DNA of 26,345 nt from a virus. The DNA lies in IMG/VR virus record IMGVR_UViG_3300025652_000455, positions 1-26,345 of that record; one strand, given 5' to 3'. Below, one piece after another: positions 14,471 through 26,345 of this stretch (within the stretch, counting starts at the first letter, position 1; the number at the start of each line of letters is the position of its first letter). Made by a program: the position numbers and the translations under genes. The notes under the pieces were generated by a model that did not search any database, was not told where the DNA came from, and saw nothing but the letters and a program-made list of their open reading frames with translations.

Positions 14471-14594
14471 TTTTTTTAAGCTCCGCTATCAACTGTGCTT
14501 GTTGTCTAATTTGTTCCCGTTGCCGCTCCAGTTCTTCGAACTGGCGGTCAACAGCACTCTGCTGTGGAAAGGGTATTACTGTGTCTGAGCTCAC
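14460..14594 (-). CDS. Hidden 44-aa coiled-coil protein with GTG start
   Basis: This small frame fills the otherwise empty 120-base gap between two late genes. It starts with a GTG that overlaps the upstream TGA (GTGA) and ends 11 bases inside the next gene. The product begins MSSDTVIPFPQQSAVDRQFE and continues as an uninterrupted charged Gln/Glu/Arg-rich helix, the composition of a real coiled coil rather than random frame translation. There is no strong ribosome-binding site, so coupling to the upstream gene through the 4-base overlap is likely. No signal or membrane segment is present, so a spanin or holin is unlikely. Function is unknown. Confidence 0.6.
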   Translation of the reverse strand: MSSDTVIPFPQQSAVDRQFEELERQREQIRQQAQLIAELKKNEV

Positions 14595-15592
14595 TTAGGC
14601 AGCGCTGCATAATTCACTAGCAAGTAGCCCTGTGGTCCTTGCACAATAGCTTCGGGGTGGGTCTTCTGGACCTCTTGGGCCATTACGCCAAAGGTGGGCC
14701 CGGTGTTTAAACCCACCCGCTTAGCTTCGGCGTTCCAATCCCAAGTATAGTATCTGATGCCATCCACAGTCTCTAAGTGCTCGACATTTTCTTTGAGGCG
14801 GATATCTGAAGGAAGACCTTCTGTATTTTTTTTCATAGATTTATCTACCGTTTCTTCAAAGTTTCCGCTTATAACTGCATCAATCCCATCCGTATAATTA
14901 GTAACCTCATTGCGGATGATCTTTAATCTCCGCACTAATTCATCAAAATGAGTAGGGTGGTTTCTCTGTAGGTAATCCATGCGTTGGGGGCTTGATTTGC
15001 AGAACGCTGTGCAGGTCAGGCAATCGATAGAACTGTGGTGAATATCAAATCTAGGATCAGTCTCACCTTTTGATTTTAGATACGATTTAACATCGTCATC
15101 AGACCAATCTTCAATCGGAAAGAAATATTGAAAACCATTTTCCCAATCCCCGCTGGACTTATTATCCTTATGTCCATCAGAGCTTCTTTGTCCGGTGATC
15201 ACAGCGGTTGCATCCACATGCTTCGCTAGTGCGTACAGTGGTTGATGAATATTTTCCAAACAGCATTGTAAGTAATCTACAATTTTGACTGCTTTTTTCC
15301 CGGCATAGCGTTGGCCCAAGTGCGTGTTATCTATAGGGACAACGTCAGACGGCATTCCGTTTTTTTCCACCCATTTGGGCTGATCCGATTTATATTTGAT
15401 AAATTTAGGAGACTGCTTTGATACTTCAGTCATGTAGGCTTTAACTTCAGGTACGTTGTTATTGGTATCCACCCAGCCGACATAAATTTTATCTAGATAA
15501 GGTTTTAGTAGATGCCAGACAGCCATGCTGTCTCTACCACCCGAACAAAAGAATATTACGTTCTCATGTTTTTCTAATATTGTTTTGATCAA
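14591..15592 (-). CDS. PAPS/APS-reductase-like enzyme fused to a C-terminal peptidase S74 (ICA) domain
   Basis: A 333-aa protein. Residues 1-230 are an adenine nucleotide alpha-hydrolase (N-type ATP-pyrophosphatase) domain: CSGGRDSMA (P-loop, 16-24), QCCLENIHQPLY (C110, C111), VITGQRSSDG and SIDCLTCTAFC (C191, C194, C198). The CC...CxxC set is the [4Fe-4S] pattern of APS reductases; the C-terminal ECGxH catalytic cysteine is absent. Residues 262-333 are an S74 intramolecular chaperone: SDIRLKENV, then FGVMAQEV (301-308) and LLVNYAAL (324-331). S262 and K267 have the spacing of the Ser-Lys dyad reported for endosialidase tail-spike chaperones, so self-cleavage before S262 is possible. The start is a TTG inside a TTGA overlap; the next ATG would remove the P-loop. 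This domain pairing is unusual. Confidence 0.85.
   Translation of the reverse strand: MIKTILEKHENVIFFCSGGRDSMAVWHLLKPYLDKIYVGWVDTNNNVPEVKAYMTEVSKQSPKFIKYKSDQPKWVEKNGMPSDVVPIDNTHLGQRYAGKKAVKIVDYLQCCLENIHQPLYALAKHVDATAVITGQRSSDGHKDNKSSGDWENGFQYFFPIEDWSDDDVKSYLKSKGETDPRFDIHHSSIDCLTCTAFCKSSPQRMDYLQRNHPTHFDELVRRLKIIRNEVTNYTDGIDAVISGNFEETVDKSMKKNTEGLPSDIRLKENVEHLETVDGIRYYTWDWNAEAKRVGLNTGPTFGVMAQEVQKTHPEAIVQGPQGYLLVNYAALPK
14594..14809 (-). other. Peptidase S74 / intramolecular chaperone domain at the end of the reductase-like gene
   Basis: Codons 262-333 encode SDIRLKENV, DGIRYYTWDW, FGVMAQEVQKTHPEAI and LLVNYAAL, the ordered conserved blocks of the S74 autoprocessing chaperone. Cleavage before S262 would release a 261-aa enzyme and a 72-aa chaperone. 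In known cases this domain trimerises spike or fibre proteins and is then cut off. Confidence 0.85.
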
Positions 15593-17349
15593 AATGCTGT
15601 AATTCCGGCACTAACAATACTCCCTAGTGCCTGATACTTGCCGCTGCTAGAACTTCCGCTGCCGCTCATTGCCCGGATCTGTGCAGCGAGTATTTCAGCG
15701 TCTCTAGTGGCCTCATTGTCGGCACCTTTGAAAATATAGTCCAACAGGTTATCGATGCTGTCCCAAAGCCTGTTCTGGGCCTCTTGAGAGATGTCTAAAG
15801 TGTTTTTTACATCCTGCCCCACCGCCTCAAAAATCATTTCTGTGTTGGCAGTTTCAACAGTCTGTCTCCACTTTGCGTTGGAGACATCAATATTGTATTG
15901 CATTTCACTGCTGAAACGGTCCCGGCTGTCAGACATCTCAGCGTTAAACTGCCTAACTGTGTTGATTTCCCCAGCATTAAATCGCTCGATGGTGTTCATT
16001 TCGGTAGAGTTATGTCGCTCAATTGCGGAGTTGAGTTCGTCATAGAATTTAGCGAAATCGTTTTCACTTTCGGCAGTGAAAAGCCGTTGAGCATTTATAG
16101 CTTTCTGGTCTTCAAAAAGTGCCTGTACAACAGCCTGTTTATCAATAACTTCGGCTTGTTGTTCGTTGGTCAGGTTCTTGAGGTCCATCTCTAGAAACGC
16201 TTTTGCGTTGGTGACCGCAGATGTCTCCCGTGCGCTCAAGTTTCCCAATTCAAAATTCGCTAGGATTTTTGCTTTGTTAATAATTGCCTCTTGTCGATTA
16301 TCGAGGTTTGCAACAGTAATTGTTTGAAAGAAAGCAGCTTCTTTATCAGCTACACCCAAAGTCGCTTCCATCACAGCGTTGGCGTAGGCAGCGGTTGCCG
16401 CTGTCCCGGAGATGCCTGAGAAAGCAATGGTTTTTTGCGTATCACGCACCATCGCCTGTGCCCAAGCTGGGATCTTTGGATCACCGTTGCTATCCTTAAA
16501 TTCAGCGGAGATAATCTCCATCTGGCCGAGAATTGTGGCTTTGTGGTCGGTGTAGTTGCCGTTGCCCAATCTCTCTGCGAGAAGCTTGCCAGCGGGTGTT
16601 GAAGTGTCAATAATTGTAGATATGTTTTGGCTGGCAAAATCATCTAGCGAATTTCCAAGGACGCCCGTCCCGGCATTTTCAGCAGCGACATCAATCTCAA
16701 TATCGTCAGCATTAACAAGATTATCGTCATCGATTTTGCCTGTTGCGGCGTTTACTTTAGTGCTTGCATCAAGTTTGTCCGCTGCAGTGCTTGCCGTAAA
16801 AGTTTCAGCACCCGGGTTTGTAACCTCACCAACAGTTTGTGCAGTACCAGCTGTTTTGGTAGAAACTGTAGGGTCTTCTCCGAGAGCATACCTTGCATCG
16901 TAAGGATCCAAATTTGTTCCCGCTGCATCTGCGTCCAAAGTTGGTAGCAAATCTTCTATTTTTAGGCCGCGACTAGATAACCACGCTTCGGGATCAGCTA
17001 TAATTGCTGCCATGTCTTTTTGTGCAACGTCTAGCCCAGCGTCTGTTGCCATTTTAAGAATGTCTTCGGCGCTTACAGCGCCCGGGGTGCGGACTAAATC
17101 ATCTTCTGTCGAAGTTCCTGTAGCTCCAGACGAGCCGGACGAGTCTTCATCGCCAGAGCGGCCACCTTCATTAGCTAGATCTTCTTGTGTCGTGTTTACT
17201 GTAGATGCCTCTACTTTTTCAGAAAACGAAGTGTTATTGTCATCGCCTTTATAATCTGCGTTATCACCACTAAAAAAAGTATCGCCAGAACCGCCTTTCC
17301 CGCCGCCATCGACCATATCGCCAAAGTCATCATATCCGAAAATAGGCAT
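15589..17349 (-). CDS. Late fibrous/rod structural protein with 11/22-residue repeats
   Basis: A 586-aa protein. Residues 1-90 are Gly/Ser/Asp-rich and probably disordered; 90-330 are mixed and unassigned. Residues 348-512 are 15 consecutive 11-residue units, the first six pairing as 22-residue repeats that begin NLDNRQEAII, NLSARETSAV and NLTNEQQAEV, then units such as NSTEMNTIERF, NAGEINTVRQF and NAEMSDSRDRF. Hendecad spacing predicts a long right-handed or straight helical coiled coil. The C-terminus is Ser/Gly-rich and ends in a small hydrophobic segment. Similar repeats occur in marine phage structural proteins. A tail, fibre or neck rod is the likely role. The gene overlaps the Rz1-like gene by one base (TAATG) and the reductase-like gene by four. 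Confidence 0.85.
   Translation of the reverse strand: MPIFGYDDFGDMVDGGGKGGSGDTFFSGDNADYKGDDNNTSFSEKVEASTVNTTQEDLANEGGRSGDEDSSGSSGATGTSTEDDLVRTPGAVSAEDILKMATDAGLDVAQKDMAAIIADPEAWLSSRGLKIEDLLPTLDADAAGTNLDPYDARYALGEDPTVSTKTAGTAQTVGEVTNPGAETFTASTAADKLDASTKVNAATGKIDDDNLVNADDIEIDVAAENAGTGVLGNSLDDFASQNISTIIDTSTPAGKLLAERLGNGNYTDHKATILGQMEIISAEFKDSNGDPKIPAWAQAMVRDTQKTIAFSGISGTAATAAYANAVMEATLGVADKEAAFFQTITVANLDNRQEAIINKAKILANFELGNLSARETSAVTNAKAFLEMDLKNLTNEQQAEVIDKQAVVQALFEDQKAINAQRLFTAESENDFAKFYDELNSAIERHNSTEMNTIERFNAGEINTVRQFNAEMSDSRDRFSSEMQYNIDVSNAKWRQTVETANTEMIFEAVGQDVKNTLDISQEAQNRLWDSIDNLLDYIFKGADNEATRDAEILAAQIRAMSGSGSSSSGKYQALGSIVSAGITAF
15814..16308 (-). repeat. Fifteen-unit hendecad (11-residue) repeat region
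   Basis: Residues 348-512 of the rod protein split without gaps into 11-residue units. Many start with Asn followed by Ala, Leu or Ser-type residues (NL.., NAKA.., NAGE.., NAEM..) and have hydrophobic or aromatic residues near positions 5, 8 and 11. The 11-residue period (three helical turns) points to one continuous parallel helical bundle of roughly 165 residues. Confidence 0.75.
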
Positions 17350-17594
17350 TAGATTTTATCCTTTTCTTCATGGCAGCGCCGAATACGGTCACGCAAATAA
17401 ACATAGTTTCCGATTGCCTCTTCAATCGCCCGGTTGTTAGGCGGTAGACTTTCGATTTCATCGGCTAGATTGTTGTTGAATGCTTCAGAATACTGCTTCA
17501 ATTGTGGGCAGTATATTTCAAGCTGAGTTCTATAAACCGTTTGAGCGCAACCGGTCAGTGACAGACTTACGATCAACAATAGCAGCGTCTTCAT
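17349..17594 (-). CDS. Rz1: Rz1-like outer-membrane lipoprotein spanin
   Basis: An 81-aa protein with an N-terminal lipoprotein signal MKTLLLLIVSLSLTGC; the lipobox LTGC puts the lipidated cysteine at position 16, leaving a mature chain of 66 residues with a PP pair. Its first 65 bases overlap the 3' end of the Rz-like gene in another frame, the classic overlapping Rz/Rz1 layout. As the o-spanin it would sit in the outer membrane facing the periplasm and bridge to the i-spanin to fuse the two membranes at the end of lysis. The mature part is longer and less proline-rich than lambda Rz1. Two later cysteines (C29, C74) are extra. Confidence 0.85.
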   Translation of the reverse strand: MKTLLLLIVSLSLTGCAQTVYRTQLEIYCPQLKQYSEAFNNNLADEIESLPPNNRAIEEAIGNYVYLRDRIRRCHEEKDKI

Positions 17595-17772
17595 GTTCAG
17601 ACATAGCCTTATAAAAATTAGTGGATTTCTTTTGTGCCTGAAGATCGTCTTCTAGCACTTTAGTCTTCTCTGCAGCTCGTCCTCTAACTCTGCCCATGAC
17701 GTAAATAATAGGTAGGGCGAGGGCTAAAGTAGCGATAATGTAGGTTTTTATTTTACCAAAAATAAACATCAT
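17530..17772 (-). CDS. Rz: Rz-like inner-membrane spanin
   Basis: An 80-aa protein with a short N-terminus, a transmembrane helix (YIIATLALALPIIYVMG, about 11-27), a basic stop (RVRGRAAEK) and a periplasmic coiled-coil segment, the topology of an i-spanin (type II, N-in). It is shorter than lambda Rz. Its stop lies inside the Rz1-like gene, in a different frame. The ATG follows directly after the stop of the 86-aa gene; a second ATG is one codon later. It would pair with the lipoprotein to disrupt the outer membrane. A holin is the main alternative for a small protein with one membrane helix, but the nested lipoprotein gene makes a spanin far more likely. Confidence 0.83.
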   Translation of the reverse strand: MMFIFGKIKTYIIATLALALPIIYVMGRVRGRAAEKTKVLEDDLQAQKKSTNFYKAMSEHEDAAIVDRKSVTDRLRSNGL

Positions 17773-18033
17773 TCAACTACTATCTTCTATTTTGTATTCG
17801 GAAGGGTCTATGTATCGAACCTTTGAAGCAGCACCAAAAGACGTGCCTAGCTTCCAGTTATACAAGCGAAGCCTATCAGCCTTTGTTTGAGGTGTTCTTA
17901 GGCCATAAGCGTCAAATATTTTATTTCCACTGCCAGAAGCCCCTACAGTTTTCCGTAACGCCCTAGCCTGTTGGTCTTTTTGCGTCTTTTGGCGGCGTTG
18001 TTTTTTGCGTATTGCCTTATCGCCCTTCGCCAT
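17773..18033 (-). CDS. Small basic hypothetical protein in the lysis cassette
   Basis: An 86-aa, strongly basic protein with a Lys/Arg/Gln-rich N-terminal third (MAKGDKAIRKKQRRQKTQKD), a Gly/Ser hinge and a tail with FGAASKVRYIDPSEYKIED. No membrane helix, cysteine or signal is present, so it is not an obvious holin or spanin. It starts in a TGATG overlap with the endolysin stop and abuts the Rz-like gene, so all are co-transcribed. The basic N-terminus could bind nucleic acid or membrane phosphate groups. No family is recognised. Confidence 0.8.
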   Translation of the reverse strand: MAKGDKAIRKKQRRQKTQKDQQARALRKTVGASGSGNKIFDAYGLRTPQTKADRLRLYNWKLGTSFGAASKVRYIDPSEYKIEDSS

Positions 18034-20232: not shown

Positions 20233-20664
20233 TTAAATCTCCATCGAAATTACGGTGTAGAGCGGCTTGTACTTCGTGCCGCTCTTGCTGGTTACGTTTT
20301 CCATCCTCTTGACCCACCCTTTGCGGCCCCAGATTTGGACATTTTGGCATTTGTTTTCTCTGGCAAATCGCTCGAAAACTGAATGCCCGGATTGTAATTT
20401 ATCCCAGTCTGCGATTGAACCCCCACACGTCATGATTTGCAGAGATTTGCGGTTGTCGAAGATTAAAAAGCGGGTAGCAAATGCAGAGGTTATCTGATCC
20501 TGATCCACATATACCCAGACATGCATCTGTCCGTTCATAGCCTGCTGAAAGGTCTGAAATGTGGTTATCTCGCCAGCAGAATGCTCAAGTGCGGCATCTA
20601 TATGATGTGAGATTTGAGGCCAGTACTTTAGGATTTCCTCTGCACTTAATAGGTGCAGTGACAT
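20233..20664 (-). CDS. Hypothetical protein, possibly GNAT-fold
   Basis: A 143-aa protein that resembles the small acetyltransferase-fold proteins found near tail genes of many phages: an N-terminal helix pair, a central strand pattern (MHVWVYVDQDQITSAFATRF) and a late NVQIWGRKGWVKRM segment. The acetyl-CoA-binding Q/RxxGxG/A loop is not evident, so it may be a non-catalytic member or unrelated. CAGGA stands before the ATG. It is the first gene after the 83-base gap (20665-20747) and would be the first gene transcribed from the promoter there. Confidence 0.7.
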   Translation of the reverse strand: MSLHLLSAEEILKYWPQISHHIDAALEHSAGEITTFQTFQQAMNGQMHVWVYVDQDQITSAFATRFLIFDNRKSLQIMTCGGSIADWDKLQSGHSVFERFARENKCQNVQIWGRKGWVKRMENVTSKSGTKYKPLYTVISMEI

Positions 20665-20747: not shown

Positions 20748-23324
20748 TCACGTTTTAACTATAAGCTTTGTAGCAGATATTGCCGTCCCTGCAAAGACAC
20801 TTGGATCATCCGCCGTTAAGCCTATCGTGCCATCAGTTTGCACAAAGTAGCTCTGCCCTGCTGTGAGGCCACCTTGGTTTGTGCTGAGTGAGCCTATGAT
20901 GTCTATTCTTGCAGCACCACCGCTTGCGACCTCTCCCGCAAAGCCTACATCGTAAACCTGTCCTACACCCTGATCGTTTCCACCTGCATCCGAATAAGCA
21001 ACAAGCATACGATCTTCTGTGCTGTTGTAAGAAATTACATTGTGCTGAGAATTTACCTCTGAGTATACTTGTGCAGTATCTAGTGTTACAGTTGTTCCGC
21101 TTATGGTTCCATCTCGTAATGTGCCATAATTAGAGTTTCCACCATCCTGATAAACCATTGCAAGTTTACCACTAGAATTAACTGTGATAGCACCATTTGT
21201 TGTAAACATGTATCCAGTAGTTGTTACTTCTACCTCAGAGCCGAAACTAATATTTGTTCCGCTAACTGTACCAACTACAATTTTACCCTTGTCACTATCA
21301 GCGGCATCTTTGTAAAAAATTGCAATCTTGTTAGTGGTCGGATCAAAAACAGAACAACGCCCCTCCGTGTTTCCTGAATTGAAGGTTGCTTCAGTGCCAT
21401 AGCTTATAGACGTTCCACTAACTGTACCAACTCTGGCGTTTCCATTATTAGAGTTAGCTTGGTCCCTATAACTTGCAACTACTTTTCCTGCATTGGAGTC
21501 ATATGTAGAGTCCATATATCCGCTTTGGCCGTTGTTTATTTCTACTCTTGTACCAAAAGAAATACTTGTTCCAGAAACTGTGCCAACAATTCCGTAACCG
21601 TTAGATGACTGATAATGGCAAACTATTTTTCCATTTGTGCTGTCAAACACAGCATGAGGATAAGATGAATTGGTAGAGTCAACAACAACCGCCGTTCCAA
21701 AACTTATAGCAGTGCCGCTTACCGTTCCAACAATCGCTGTCAGATACCCTGAGTTACCTGCATCAATATAAAAAATAACAACTTTATTATTCGTAGAATC
21801 AAAAACAGGGCTAACATAACTTGTAGACCCTGTTTCAAATACAACAGGCGTACCAAAGCTAACAGTACTTCCGCTTACCGTAGCAACAGCAGCAGTCCCC
21901 TGATTAGAATTGCCTTCATCTTGATAAGCAATAACATGACGATTATTTGTGCTATCATACGCACTGCCAATGTCATCAACAGCACCTGTTTCAAAAACTA
22001 CAGACGTACCAAACCCAAAAGGCGAAGCAGGGCCACTAGACATGCCGATGTAGTTCTCGGCGGTGAGGTTTTTAGTGGTGTACGAAGCTGCGTTTCGTAA
22101 AACTACAGCAGTTCCAGAATTAGAGTTACTAGTATCCCTGTATGCTATTACTACCCTTTCAACGCCAGAGCTAGAGTCATACACTGCAGCCACATCGTCA
22201 GTTCTACCATCTTCATACAGCACAGAAGAGCCAAAACTAATAGCCGTACCACTTACAGTGCCGACTACGAGTTTTCCCTTATCAAGATTGCCACCATCGG
22301 CGTAAGCTATAACAACCTTTTGAGCGTTAGCGTCGTAAGTAGCTGAGAGAGAAGTCTCTATTTGAGAATTCTGAAACACTACGGGAGTTCCAAAGGAAAT
22401 TGATGTTCCGCTAACAGTAGCTACTACAGCAGTTCCTTTGGTGCCGTTGTTATAATCTACATAAGCAATAACTACCTTCTGAGCTACGGCGTCATAAGTA
22501 GTAGATGTACCCGTGGTGGGGCCCGTTTCAAAAACAGAAGCAGAACCAAAACTAATAGATGTCCCGCTTACAGTGCCAACAATAGCCGTGCCGTAGTTAG
22601 AGTTACCATCGTCTCTATATGAAATAACTATCTTTTGGGCATTGGAATCGTAAGCTGATGACACGGCCTCGACAGTAGCACTTTCGAATACAACCGCACT
22701 ACCAAAGCTGATAGATGTACCACTTACTGTGCCAACAATAGCCGTGCCGTAGTTAGAGTTTCCGTTGTCTCTATAAGAAATGACCACTTTCTGAGCATTG
22801 GAGTCATAGGAAAGGGAAGTGAACTCTACCTCACTACTGTCGAACACTACTGGAGTTCCAAAGCTTATTGACGTGCCACTTACAGTGCCTACCACAGCAG
22901 TGCCATCGCTATTGGAGCTGTTATTATAAGAGATAACTACTTTTTGCGAATTGGAGTCGTAGGTAGAAGAAAACTCCTCGGTGTTGCTACTCTGAAACAC
23001 TACGGGAGTTCCAAAGCTGATAGTCGTACCACTTACAGTGCCAACACTAGCCGTGCCGTAGTTGGAGTTTAAGTTGGCTCTATAAGCCACGACCACTTTC
23101 TGAGCGTTCTCATCGTAGGTGGCTGTAACATCAAAGCTTTCCGCTGTCTCAAACACAACAGCAGTGCCTAGCGCTTGGGATTCGCTTGAGCTAGTCTCCG
23201 CAACAACACTAACAGTACCATCAGCATTAACTATAACAGCCTTACCATTAGGCAGCACCCCTGATGCAACAGCCTTCAGTATGCCCTCAGCGTTCGTGTC
23301 TGACGGAATGTATGAAAGCGTCAT
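20748..23324 (-). CDS. Double seven-bladed beta-propeller-like adhesin (14 repeats)
   Basis: An 858-aa protein. Residues 1-50 form an N-cap (AVASGVLPNGKAVIVNADG). Then come 14 units of about 52 residues with consensus VVFE...S..YDSN.QKVVISYRD.GNSNYGTA, then VGTVSGTSISFG, four strands each as in propeller blades. Unit 7 ends in a linker containing NLTAENYIGM, which also occurs before the end module of a paralogue, so the protein reads as two seven-unit propellers joined. The last ~41 residues are a shared end module (GLTAGQSYFV, then DDPSVFAGTA and KLIVKT). There is no signal peptide or cysteine network, so it is a virion protein, probably host-binding. AAGGG before the ATG comes from the end of the upstream gene. 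Confidence 0.85.
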   Translation of the reverse strand: MTLSYIPSDTNAEGILKAVASGVLPNGKAVIVNADGTVSVVAETSSSESQALGTAVVFETAESFDVTATYDENAQKVVVAYRANLNSNYGTASVGTVSGTTISFGTPVVFQSSNTEEFSSTYDSNSQKVVISYNNSSNSDGTAVVGTVSGTSISFGTPVVFDSSEVEFTSLSYDSNAQKVVISYRDNGNSNYGTAIVGTVSGTSISFGSAVVFESATVEAVSSAYDSNAQKIVISYRDDGNSNYGTAIVGTVSGTSISFGSASVFETGPTTGTSTTYDAVAQKVVIAYVDYNNGTKGTAVVATVSGTSISFGTPVVFQNSQIETSLSATYDANAQKVVIAYADGGNLDKGKLVVGTVSGTAISFGSSVLYEDGRTDDVAAVYDSSSGVERVVIAYRDTSNSNSGTAVVLRNAASYTTKNLTAENYIGMSSGPASPFGFGTSVVFETGAVDDIGSAYDSTNNRHVIAYQDEGNSNQGTAAVATVSGSTVSFGTPVVFETGSTSYVSPVFDSTNNKVVIFYIDAGNSGYLTAIVGTVSGTAISFGTAVVVDSTNSSYPHAVFDSTNGKIVCHYQSSNGYGIVGTVSGTSISFGTRVEINNGQSGYMDSTYDSNAGKVVASYRDQANSNNGNARVGTVSGTSISYGTEATFNSGNTEGRCSVFDPTTNKIAIFYKDAADSDKGKIVVGTVSGTNISFGSEVEVTTTGYMFTTNGAITVNSSGKLAMVYQDGGNSNYGTLRDGTISGTTVTLDTAQVYSEVNSQHNVISYNSTEDRMLVAYSDAGGNDQGVGQVYDVGFAGEVASGGAARIDIIGSLSTNQGGLTAGQSYFVQTDGTIGLTADDPSVFAGTAISATKLIVKT
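20919..23171 (-). repeat. Fourteen ~156-bp tandem coding repeats
   Basis: Fourteen units encode the ~52-residue blades of the 858-aa protein. The most alike neighbours share long identical stretches; for example the same 32 bases occur at 22573-22604 and 22729-22760, exactly 156 bases apart. Units 1-6 are closer to each other than to units 10-14. The array is broken once, around 22018-22098, by the linker that marks the junction between the two sets of seven. Confidence 0.88.
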
Positions 23325-23327
23325 GCG

Positions 23328-24797
23328 TTAGCCCTTTACTATTAATTTAGTTGCAGACACAGCAGTGCCAGCAAAGACCGATGGATCATCAGCCGTTAAG
23401 CCTAAGTCGCCGTTGTTTTGAACGAAGTAGCTCTGACCCGCCGTTAAGCTAGACTGGTTATCGTCTATGAAGCCCTTGGCGTTGATCGTGGCAGCTTGGC
23501 CCGATGCGTAGCCGTTAGAGGCAAAGCCTATAAAACTTGGCGTGTTTGGCCCCGGCCCTGCGTTTTGAAACACAGACGCTGTTCCATGCTCAGAGTTATC
23601 AAAGTCAGAATAAACACAGACAACCTTGTTTGCGTTGCTGACAAAAGCTGTCGACAGTTGAAAGGTGCTATTGTTTGTCTGCCCCCCAGTAATATCAACA
23701 GCAGCGCCGAAAGAAATAGATGTCCCACTAACAGTGCCAACAACAAACTTGCCTGTGCCATTTATATTGTCCTGATATGCAATAACCAGCTTATTGGCAT
23801 TACTGTCGAACGAAATTGAATTGTTATTGCCTTCAGTTGATCCTGAGTAAATTACGGGGCTACCAAAGCTGATAGTGGTTCCACTTACCGTTCCTACGAT
23901 TGCAGTTCCCTTGTCTAAGGTACCATCATCCATGTAGGCAATGACAATTTTATTGCTGTTGCTATCAAAAGCTATAGAAGTCCAAGCAGTGCTGGCGCTT
24001 TCAAATGTAACAGGATTGCCAAAACTTAGACTTGTACCGCTTATTGTGCCAATAATAGCCTTGCCATAGTTAGAATTTCCAACGTCACGAAAGGCTATGA
24101 CTACTTTACCAGCGTTACTGTCAAAGGCTGTTGATATATACTGAGTAGAGCCAGTTTCAAATATTACTGATGCGGCAGCATTAGAAATGGTCGTCCCGCT
24201 TACAGTTAAAACTCTGGCCGTTCCCCTGTCAGCGTTAGCATCGTCCTCGTAAGCCACGACAACCTTGTTGTTTACGCTGTCAAAGGTCGCAGAAATAAAT
24301 TGAGTAGCGCCAGATTCAAACACAAGCTCCGATCCAAAAGATATACTATCCCCGCTAACATTCCCCGCAATAGCAGTCCCCCGCTGACTATTCCCACCAT
24401 CCTGATAACAGATAACAACTTTATTTTCGTTGCTATCAAAGGTTGATGCGATATGATTTGTTTGAGCGCTCGCAAAGACCACAGGAGTCCCAAAGGTAAT
24501 TGATGTGCCGCTTAATGTGCCGACAACTGCTGTGCCGTAAGAGGAATTGTTTTGGTCTCGGAATGACACAACAATTTTATTTGAGTTTGAGTCAAACGTA
24601 ACAGAAGGATACAAAGTTCTATCAGCCTCAAAAACAACAGGGTCGCCAACAACCTGATCAACAGTTCCACCCGTTGGGCTTATCAGTCCAACAGTCCCAT
24701 CAGCATTAACAACAACCGTATCACCAGAAGCTAACGCACCACTGGCAATGGCCTGTACTTTTCGGGCTGTATTTCCACGATTGCCAATGATACGCAT
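23328..24797 (-). CDS. Seven-bladed beta-propeller-like adhesin
   Basis: A 489-aa paralogue of the 858-aa protein. It has the same N-cap (AIASGALASGDTVVVNADG, residues 16-34), exactly seven ~52-residue units (about 51-410) with FDSN.NKVVIAYQDGGNS and VGTVSGTSISFG motifs, a short linker with FIGFASNGYASG, and the shared end module (SLTAGQSYFV...ADDPSVFAGTA...KLIVKG). Seven units of a four-stranded repeat is the usual number for a closed propeller ring. Unit 3 has lost the ISFG ending (ISNA). The ribosome-binding site GAGGAGGAG is formed by the terminal EEE codons of the 87-aa gene. It is probably a tail adhesin or spike; binding to a surface glycan is inferred. Confidence 0.85.
   Translation of the reverse strand: MRIIGNRGNTARKVQAIASGALASGDTVVVNADGTVGLISPTGGTVDQVVGDPVVFEADRTLYPSVTFDSNSNKIVVSFRDQNNSSYGTAVVGTLSGTSITFGTPVVFASAQTNHIASTFDSNENKVVICYQDGGNSQRGTAIAGNVSGDSISFGSELVFESGATQFISATFDSVNNKVVVAYEDDANADRGTARVLTVSGTTISNAAASVIFETGSTQYISTAFDSNAGKVVIAFRDVGNSNYGKAIIGTISGTSLSFGNPVTFESASTAWTSIAFDSNSNKIVIAYMDDGTLDKGTAIVGTVSGTTISFGSPVIYSGSTEGNNNSISFDSNANKLVIAYQDNINGTGKFVVGTVSGTSISFGAAVDITGGQTNNSTFQLSTAFVSNANKVVCVYSDFDNSEHGTASVFQNAGPGPNTPSFIGFASNGYASGQAATINAKGFIDDNQSSLTAGQSYFVQNNGDLGLTADDPSVFAGTAVSATKLIVKG
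23560..24647 (-). repeat. Seven ~156-bp tandem coding repeats
   Basis: Seven consecutive units encode the blades of the 489-aa protein. The DNA of the VSGTSISFG segment and the following VVFE segment is shared closely with units in the two neighbouring paralogues. Confidence 0.87.
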
Positions 24798-24803
24798 TTA
24801 TAC

Positions 24804-25067
24804 TTACTCCTCCTCGTCGAGAGTTGGATCAACCCAGTCAGGGTTAGCTGTCCATGTAGTGCCATCAAACGTATAACGATTGCCCGTCCAGTCCGCTGGG
24901 GCGTTGGTCACGTTGTCTGTGACGGTCACTGTGGTGCTGTTCAGATCACCAATAATGAACTGTGCAGGATCACCCACTGTAATGTTGTCTGCCGTAGCAG
25001 TAATAGTCACGTCATCAGCAAGCAGGTACTTGCTCAAGCCGCTGGATGTTTCAACTATTGTCCTCAT
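24804..25067 (-). CDS. Small hypothetical protein between adhesin paralogues
   Basis: An 87-aa protein, Thr/Asp-rich, predicted mostly beta (DDVTITATADNITVGDPAQF, STTVTVTDNVTN), with an aromatic segment GNRYTFDGTTWTANPDW that resembles short surface-binding modules in phage tail proteins, and an acidic end DPTLDEEE. AAAGGA at the end of the upstream adhesin gene lies six bases from the ATG. No signal or membrane segment is present. It could be a cap, chaperone or small tip protein for the adhesins on either side. No family is assigned. Confidence 0.78.
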   Translation of the reverse strand: MRTIVETSSGLSKYLLADDVTITATADNITVGDPAQFIIGDLNSTTVTVTDNVTNAPADWTGNRYTFDGTTWTANPDWVDPTLDEEE

Positions 25068-25071
25068 TTCG

Positions 25072-26345
25072 TTATCCTTTCACGATGATTTCTGTGGCTG
25101 AGATCGCAGTCCCAGCGATTACTGACGGGTCATCAGCCGTTAAGCCAAGCGTCCCATTTGTTTGTACAAAGTATTGCTGGCCTGCTGTGAGGCTGGATTG
25201 CGCACCGTTAATGCCGCTACCAATCTGAACTCTCGCCCTGCCTGTGTCAGCAGCAGCGCCGTCAGTAAAGCCTATGAAGTTCTCAGCGGTTATGTTGGTG
25301 GTGGCGTAGGCGGGTTGGTACACAACAGATGTACCACGAACAGAATTGCCGCCGTCTGTATAGCTTAAAACAACTTTACTAGAATTTGAATCGTATGTGG
25401 CAGAACCCATTATGACCAATGAAGTTCCCGAAAAAACAGAAGGGCTGTCAAAACTTAGGGATGTACCAGTTATTGTTCCAGTAATAACAGTCCCACGACC
25501 AGAGTTTCCCGCATCCGCATATGCTATCACAAATTTATTTGCTATAGGGTCAAAAGCAACGCAAGGAATATCCGTTTTTGCACTTTCAAATACTGCAGGT
25601 GTGCCAAAGCTAATAGTTGTGCCGCTGACGGTCCCTACAATGGCAGTGCCATAATTAGAATTTCCAGTGTCCCTATAAACCACAATTATTTTATTGGTAA
25701 TAGAATCAAAAGCAACATGCGGTTCTCTTGTATCTGAATTTTCAAAAACAACAGATGTGCCAAAGCTGATTGACGTGCCGCTGACCGTTCCTACAATGGC
25801 AGTGCCGTCCCTTGCATTGTTCGCATCTCCATAGACTATAACGATTTTGTTTGAGTTGCTATCAAAAGTCATTGCCGGTTCATAAGCGACCCCTGAATCA
25901 AATTGAACAGCAGACCCAAAGCTAATAGTTGTACCACTTACTGTACCAACTTTGCAGTAAGCTGCACTACTTTTTTTATACGCCACAACGATTTTGTTTG
26001 AGCTTGAATCAAAAGCCATAGATGCGTCTGAATAAGTAGTGCCTGAGTCGATAGTTGCCGCACCTCCAAAACTAATGGAAGTACCACTTACTGTCCCAAC
26101 TTTCGCAGTTGGTTGATTGGAAGAGTTAGAATAGTACACCACTATTTTATTGGAATTGCTGTCGAAGGCGATAGGCATCGGAACATACTGAGCGTTGCTC
26201 GCAATTTGAACAGGCGTACCAAAACTAATAGAAGTACCACTTACTGTCCCAACTACAGCTTTTGGTCTATTTGCATTTCCAGTGTCCCTATATGCTATTA
26301 CTATTTTGTTGGAGTTGCTGTCAAAAGCGGAAAAACCCCAAAGGG
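25072..26345 (-). CDS. Beta-propeller-like adhesin, 5' end outside window
   Basis: The frame is open to the right edge, so the visible ~424 residues are the C-terminal part; an internal ATG at 26178 is not the start. Seven units are visible, the first cut by the edge (ends VVGTVSGTSISFG). The second to fourth are shorter (about 47-51 residues). Then follow the linker TTNITAENFIGFTDG and the end module SLTAGQQYFVQTNGTLGL, DDPSVIAGTA and EIIVKG. If it is built like its 489-aa paralogue, only the N-cap and part of one blade are missing. The end codons AAAGGATAA give the ribosome-binding site of the 87-aa gene. The product is a probable tail adhesin. Confidence 0.84.
   Translation of the reverse strand, partial: LWGFSAFDSNSNKIVIAYRDTGNANRPKAVVGTVSGTSISFGTPVQIASNAQYVPMPIAFDSNSNKIVVYYSNSSNQPTAKVGTVSGTSISFGGAATIDSGTTYSDASMAFDSSSNKIVVAYKKSSAAYCKVGTVSGTTISFGSAVQFDSGVAYEPAMTFDSNSNKIVIVYGDANNARDGTAIVGTVSGTSISFGTSVVFENSDTREPHVAFDSITNKIIVVYRDTGNSNYGTAIVGTVSGTTISFGTPAVFESAKTDIPCVAFDPIANKFVIAYADAGNSGRGTVITGTITGTSLSFDSPSVFSGTSLVIMGSATYDSNSSKVVLSYTDGGNSVRGTSVVYQPAYATTNITAENFIGFTDGAAADTGRARVQIGSGINGAQSSLTAGQQYFVQTNGTLGLTADDPSVIAGTAISATEIIVKG
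25327..26345 (-). repeat. Seven visible ~150-bp coding repeats (array continues to edge)
   Basis: Units encode AFDSNSNKIVIAYRD-type and VGTVSGTSISFG segments. The array runs to the edge of the window, so the total number of units is at least seven. Confidence 0.85.

Follow-up and report, generated by a model that had tools for sequence, protein, structure and literature searches.

How does an enzyme of the PP-loop type come to end in a chaperone tail? S74 domains are intramolecular chaperones whose usual carriers are fibres, spikes or, among the relatives described below, ejection-type virion proteins, whereas one gene of the stretch analysed here (the window, a 26,345-base IMG/VR virus record which is classed linear and is probably a fragment) joins such a domain to a PP-loop enzyme of the PAPS/APS-reductase-like type (PAPSR). 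A sequence-only reading of the window had recognised this two-domain frame and had offered three explanations for it, namely a virion-mounted enzyme, a trimer matured by cleavage, or a deletion fusion.

The open frame lies on the minus strand, the plus strand over positions 14591–15592 being riddled with stops, and starts with a TTG codon (Table 1). Both domains were confirmed by Pfam at scores far above chance, PAPS_reduct at residues 12–196 (E 1.6e-13; 51.5 bits, cut-off 22.5) and Peptidase_S74 at residues 262–315 (E 4.6e-11; 43.3 bits, cut-off 22), and all the motifs named by the sequence-only reading (SGGRDS, the CC and CxxC pairs, S262 and K267) are present. Like other Peptidase_S74 domains, including the endoNF CIMCD, the tail begins with SDIRLKEN and contains the core motifs GVMAQEV and VNY. 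Its Ser-Lys spacing is also of the S74 type, as the earlier reading had claimed: in endoNF, S911 and K916 are likewise five residues apart, the cut falls immediately N-terminal to S911, and K916 serves as the general base (PMC3828593). AlphaFold modelled the S74 domain of the window with a pLDDT of about 78–94 over most of its length and predicted the linker at residues 247–257 to be disordered and without a stalk. Among the top matches listed from a viral structure library, no protein spanned both domains.

Table 1. Features of the PAPSR-S74 locus and its surroundings (positions refer to the window unless a locus is given)
Feature	Position	Strand	Basis or remark
PAPSR-S74 fusion gene, 333 aa	14591..15592	minus	TTG start aligned with M1 of stand-alone homologues
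PP-loop/APS-reductase-like domain (PAPSR) and linker, residues 1-261	14810..15592	minus	Pfam PF01507, Foldseek
PP-loop motif SGGRDS, residues 17-22	15527..15544	minus	
CC pair, residues 110-111, first half of 4Fe-4S-type CC-x80-CxxC motif	15260..15265	minus	
CxxC, residues 191-194, second half of CC-x80-CxxC motif	15011..15022	minus	
S74 intramolecular-chaperone domain, residues 262-333	14594..14809	minus	PF13884, AlphaFold, dN/dS
Ser262, predicted nucleophile; predicted cut P261/S262	14807..14809	minus	Spacing as in endoNF S911/K916
Lys267, predicted general base	14792..14794	minus	
TTGA stop/start overlap of body and PAPSR-S74	15589..15592	minus	Same in L006, L007, L008
Body of ejection-type virion protein, 586 aa	15589..17349	minus	S74 is its own tail in relatives
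Transferred cassette (approximate): last ~22 body codons, PAPSR, first ~4 S74 codons	14798..15657	minus	Nucleotide identity profile
Downstream virion-type genes, 64, 189, 837 and 1141 aa	7812..14470	minus	Same order in relatives with body and S74
Separate S74 ORFs	L189:2613-2825, L191:4779-4991, L208:4761-4991; also L211		

The same two-domain order, for which the earlier reading had proposed a search in other phages, was found in three further IMG/VR contigs, L006 (3300025806_000333), L007 (3300011252_000347) and L008 (3300025137_000256). The fusion of L006 is ~100% identical to that of the window, and both probably represent the same virus. L007 and L008 encode fusions which are 88–90% identical to the window copy (88–89% in amino acids), and the S262/K267 dyad with its spacing of five is kept in the window, L007 and L008. 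The fusion is known from three distinct sequence lineages only, all of them from uncultured viruses.

The origin of the tail is apparent from the gene upstream, which encodes the body of an ejection-type virion protein. This body is joined to S74 in one ORF in 68 records and occurs at full length without S74 in seven, and the order of body followed by PAPSR-S74 was limited to the window, L006, L007 and L008. In the window, PAPSR is placed exactly at the scissile bond between body and S74; the body ends there, and the S74 continues in frame as the tail of PAPSR. The closest empty site found, and a clean one, is that of L015, which contains no PAPSR and reads ...GTIIAAGITKF|SDIRLKEN at the junction, while L007 reads ...GTIIAAGIGAF-stop, followed by PAPSR and ...SLP|SDIRLKEN; these two loci share 93% identity in the body and also 93% in S74. 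The insertion lies at the bond that precedes the catalytic Ser. From these alignments, we consider it nearly certain that PAPSR-S74 arose when PAPSR was inserted into the gene of an ejection-type protein, at the border of its S74. The sequence-only reading had named relatives carrying the two domains as separate genes as an argument against its view; such relatives exist and account for the origin of the gene, yet the fusion is genuine and has been maintained.

Among relatives in which the body carries an S74 tail, matches to phrog_4287 ("DNA ejection protein") and to phrog_6121 ("virion structural protein") extend outside S74 (340–660 in L015, 246–661 in L013). Unlike these S74-tailed proteins, the window body is separated from its S74 by the PAPSR gene. 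The window body alone gave no significant match to the phrog families, no homology to the Burkholderia-type upstream proteins was detected outside its final 26 residues (hhalign probability 9), and its AlphaFold model (helical, pLDDT 46) was too low for use. Another insert at the same joint is seen in L016 (1-2076), where ~150 additional residues lie between an ejection-type body and S74. S74 has also been detached from its body elsewhere. In L189, L191, L208 and L211, it forms a separate 70-aa ORF which starts in the body stop codon (ATGGTTAA) and has lost the catalytic Ser, and in L178 and L179 it has decayed to a remnant. The retention of Ser and Lys in the window, L007 and L008 fits a continuing need for the predicted cut, without proving it.

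PAPSR has a history of its own within this group. Its DNA is 88–90% identical across two phage backgrounds whose bodies share ~57% and whose S74s differ. Between the window and L007, identity at the nucleotide level amounts to 90% in PAPSR (dS 0.33), compared to 57% in the body and 74.5% in S74 (both saturated) and 58.6% in the downstream 189-aa gene (dS 2.2). L007 lies near L015 in body, S74 and 189-aa gene, while the S74 and 189-aa gene of the window lie near those of L009–L014. The identity profile places the breakpoints ~66 nt within the 3' end of the body and ~4 codons into S74. Two backgrounds with such divergent flanks thus received the same PAPSR, by placement or by exchange, and in each it reads in frame into the S74 already there; judged by this profile, it is PAPSR that moved between them, without the S74. 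The fused S74 itself shows dN/dS values of about 0.07–0.12 in most comparisons with fused copies, no looser than unfused ones, these values being noisy over 72 codons. Purifying selection still acts on it, and the Ser-Lys pair is intact.

As to the identity of the enzyme, assimilatory PAPS/APS reductase (CysH) is marked by a C-terminal ECG(L/I)H catalytic cysteine. The distinct members of the PAPSR subfamily all contain the PP-loop SGG[KR]DS (49/49) and nearly all the motif CC-x77-84-CxxC (48/49), but none contains ECGxH (0/49), and the window protein has no Cys beyond C198. PAPSR thus shares with CysH the PF01507 fold and, as in Fe-S APS reductases, the CC-x80-CxxC arrangement, and differs from it in combining an intact PP-loop with the lack of the C-terminal motif. 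Because the scores against the CysH models of NCBIfam were also all far below the cut-offs (37.9, 32.2 and 22.6 bits against 154, 165 and 235), sulfate reduction is unsupported as the function of PAPSR. Foldseek ranked APS/PAPS reductases first (top matches 4bwv and 7rge), followed by LarE and GMP synthetase-type PP-loop enzymes. A PP-loop and Fe-S-type cysteines are likewise found in SspD and DndC of DNA phosphorothioation, both of them ATP pyrophosphatases with a link to sulfur transfer (PMC7188994). The SspD model of PADLOC recognised the Burkholderia homologue in L050 at 5e-13 and the window protein weakly, at 7.8e-4. Unlike SspD and DndC, PAPSR adjoins an ejection-type gene, and no SspA/B/C partners were noticed within the 26-kb window. 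On these motifs and scores, PAPSR is better described as SspD/DndC-like than as a sulfate reductase, a role which is unproven; a literature search for its Fe-S motif returned no paper.

A PAPSR-domain search of IMG/VR yielded 35 viral loci, and those outside the marine fusion group all encode stand-alone enzymes of ~240 aa. In all 35, a virion-type gene upstream stops next to the PAPSR start, and in cellular genomes the same pattern holds for 13 of the 15 loci whose cysteine motif is complete, although these counts come from pattern-based searches and are therefore not unbiased frequencies (the PAPSR-bearing loci span L024–L055 and L221–L235). The products of the upstream genes usually have a C-terminus rich in Gly and Ala, for example ...GTIAGAGIMAF, and include members of phrog_6121 (L024, L026), phrog_4287 (L051) and phrog_8003 (L050); those of the first two families match their profiles only up to the would-be start of S74. 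Within phrog_6121, S74 follows flush after an end of the ...GLGGAGIMAF type in 69 members, none of which is linked to PAPSR (0/69), and the three PAPSR-linked members end at that same residue. The mutual exclusion of S74 and PAPSR behind phrog_6121 indicates that both use one slot, which holds the two together in the marine lineage only. The Bcep22-like PAPS reductases (JC1 gp65 and BcepIL02 gp67) are similar in sequence, with 33–35% identity over 74% of the fusion, and also follow directly behind a virion-associated gene with an ...AGAGIMAF end, but they are stand-alone proteins of 240 aa without S74. We found no paper in the literature which places a PAPS reductase beside internal virion proteins.

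This linkage of ejection gene and PAPSR has a wider reach than the fusion itself and is of greater interest. It means that phage genes labelled as "PAPS reductase" (cysH) include a subfamily without the catalytic cysteine which is tied by position to DNA-ejection genes, and "sulfate assimilation" is therefore a doubtful label for this subfamily. We also entertain, as a speculative extension, a conserved unit in many podoviruses consisting of an ejection protein and an adjacent Fe-S PP-loop enzyme, in which the enzyme would act on the incoming DNA, or else on the ejection protein or together with it, and would have replaced S74 at the processing site; the window would then show an intermediate in which S74 is carried by the enzyme and works in trans.

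In PAPSR-S74, a chaperone tail was captured when PAPSR was inserted at a self-cleavage joint; the parts are known, and their arrangement is new. As the best explanation of the whole, we propose with reasonable though incomplete confidence that a mobile PAPSR was inserted at this joint, is translated by a restart and is cut off, leaving the S74 to work in trans, the uncertain part being the cleavage and in-trans steps. A mobile PAPSR-like gene occupies the slot directly behind the gene of an ejection-type virion protein, and in the marine lineage this slot coincides with the peptide bond that normally separates the ejection protein from its S74 tail. Ribosomes would complete the body, whose C-terminus would already be the "mature" one, and would then restart at the overlapping TTG to produce PAPSR-S74. 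The S74 would trimerise and cut between P261 and S262, releasing a free enzyme of ~261 aa, like the stand-alone homologues, and an S74 of ~72 aa, unless the S74 stays on; once free, it could continue to assist the ejection protein, now in trans. The enzyme would be an ATP-pyrophosphatase/Fe-S sulfur-transfer enzyme acting in the infected cell, not in the virion. The separate S74 ORFs in L189, L191, L208 and L211 provide a precedent for an S74 off its body. This proposal is opposed by the knowledge of S74 as a chaperone acting within its own chain and by the seven full-length bodies which manage without any S74; the small number of lineages with the fusion and the undetected homology of most of the window body to the Burkholderia-type proteins also count against it. 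If it holds, a built-in self-cleavage site would provide a safe joint at which a structural gene can take up an AMG-like phage gene and stay unbroken, and PAPSR-S74 would represent a natural test case for an S74 chaperone working in trans.

Alternatively, the S74 may now serve PAPSR itself, trimerising or folding the enzyme and then being cut off or staying on, which would create a new trimeric enzyme. The conservation of Ser262, Lys267 and the S74 core in three lineages at a dN/dS of about 0.1 and the rejoining of the fusion in frame on two backgrounds speak for such a role, but about 46 other members of the PAPSR subfamily do without S74, the disordered linker offers no stalk, and we know of no need for trimerisation in PAPSR-type enzymes, which also counts against it. 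We therefore regard this role as rather unlikely, while the trimer matured by cleavage from the sequence-only reading is a possible prediction for PAPSR-S74. Similarly doubtful is the view that the insertion left the S74 as a mere passenger on its way to loss, with PAPSR working with or without the tail. Some bodies and the PAPSR-linked ejection genes elsewhere indeed lack S74, and another family split it off and then let it decay (L178/L179). However, the S74s of L007 and L008 (dS 0.9, dN/dS 0.10) show intact catalytic residues and no nonsynonymous excess, and the fused copies kept the Ser which the split copies elsewhere lost; the fused S74 could be too young a passenger for decay.

A −1 frameshift at the TTGA overlap, which would yield some body-PAPSR-S74 protein and an enzyme carried on or injected by the virion, is highly improbable. 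In all three lineages, the two frames differ by −1 and share a conserved overlap, GCATTTTGAT, and the junction RNA folds slightly better than shuffled sequences (z −2.0), but there is no slippery heptamer of the X XXY YYZ type at GCA TTT TGA, and the stem near the junction of the window is not visible in L008. A restart at TTG, a codon that lines up with the starts of the homologues, is an ordinary explanation. The homologues give no virion evidence for PAPSR either: the reported virion proteome of JC1 contains gp64, gp67 and gp68 but not the PAPSR homologue gp65 (PMC9144972), and in BcepIL02, gp66 and gp68 are annotated as virion-associated, whereas gp67 is not. Absence from such data is weak evidence, and these homologues carry no S74; the virion-mounted enzyme of the earlier reading is not supported. 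Finally, an assembly or sequencing error, which that reading had considered for the junction near 14809, or a deletion fusing two distant genes, neither of which the window alone could exclude, can practically be dismissed, because the same joint and TTGA overlap recur in independent contigs at 88–92% identity, and because relatives show PAPSR inserted between the ejection-type protein and its own S74 tail, with S74 and downstream synteny unchanged compared to the empty-site relatives.

The remaining genes of the window place it among known phages. Its DNA polymerase ORF (598–2724) contains two CxxCxGxG repeats (CDLCSGSG...CKMCEGSG), and a DNA polymerase with a partial DnaJ domain and two such repeats is a mark of HMO-2011-type marine phages (PMC9038755). 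Named relatives are the Roseobacter phages CRP-738 and CRP-235. The small spanin-like genes between lysozyme and body (17347–17777) are 91–95% identical to the L007/L008/L015 type, while the lysozyme matches the other background at 89–93%, indicating local mosaicism. Three large tail-type genes (20748–26178) contain many repeats like VVISYRDNGNSNYGTAIVGTVSGTSISFGTPVVF and have similar C-termini (SLTAGQ.YFVQ...GTA.SAT..IVK). A small protein encoded at 20233–20664 occupies the position of the "putative acyltransferase" of CRP-738, and other phages too have an annotated acetyl- or acyltransferase ahead of their ejection/PAPSR or ejection/S74 units (loci compared with the window: L004, L136 and L139).
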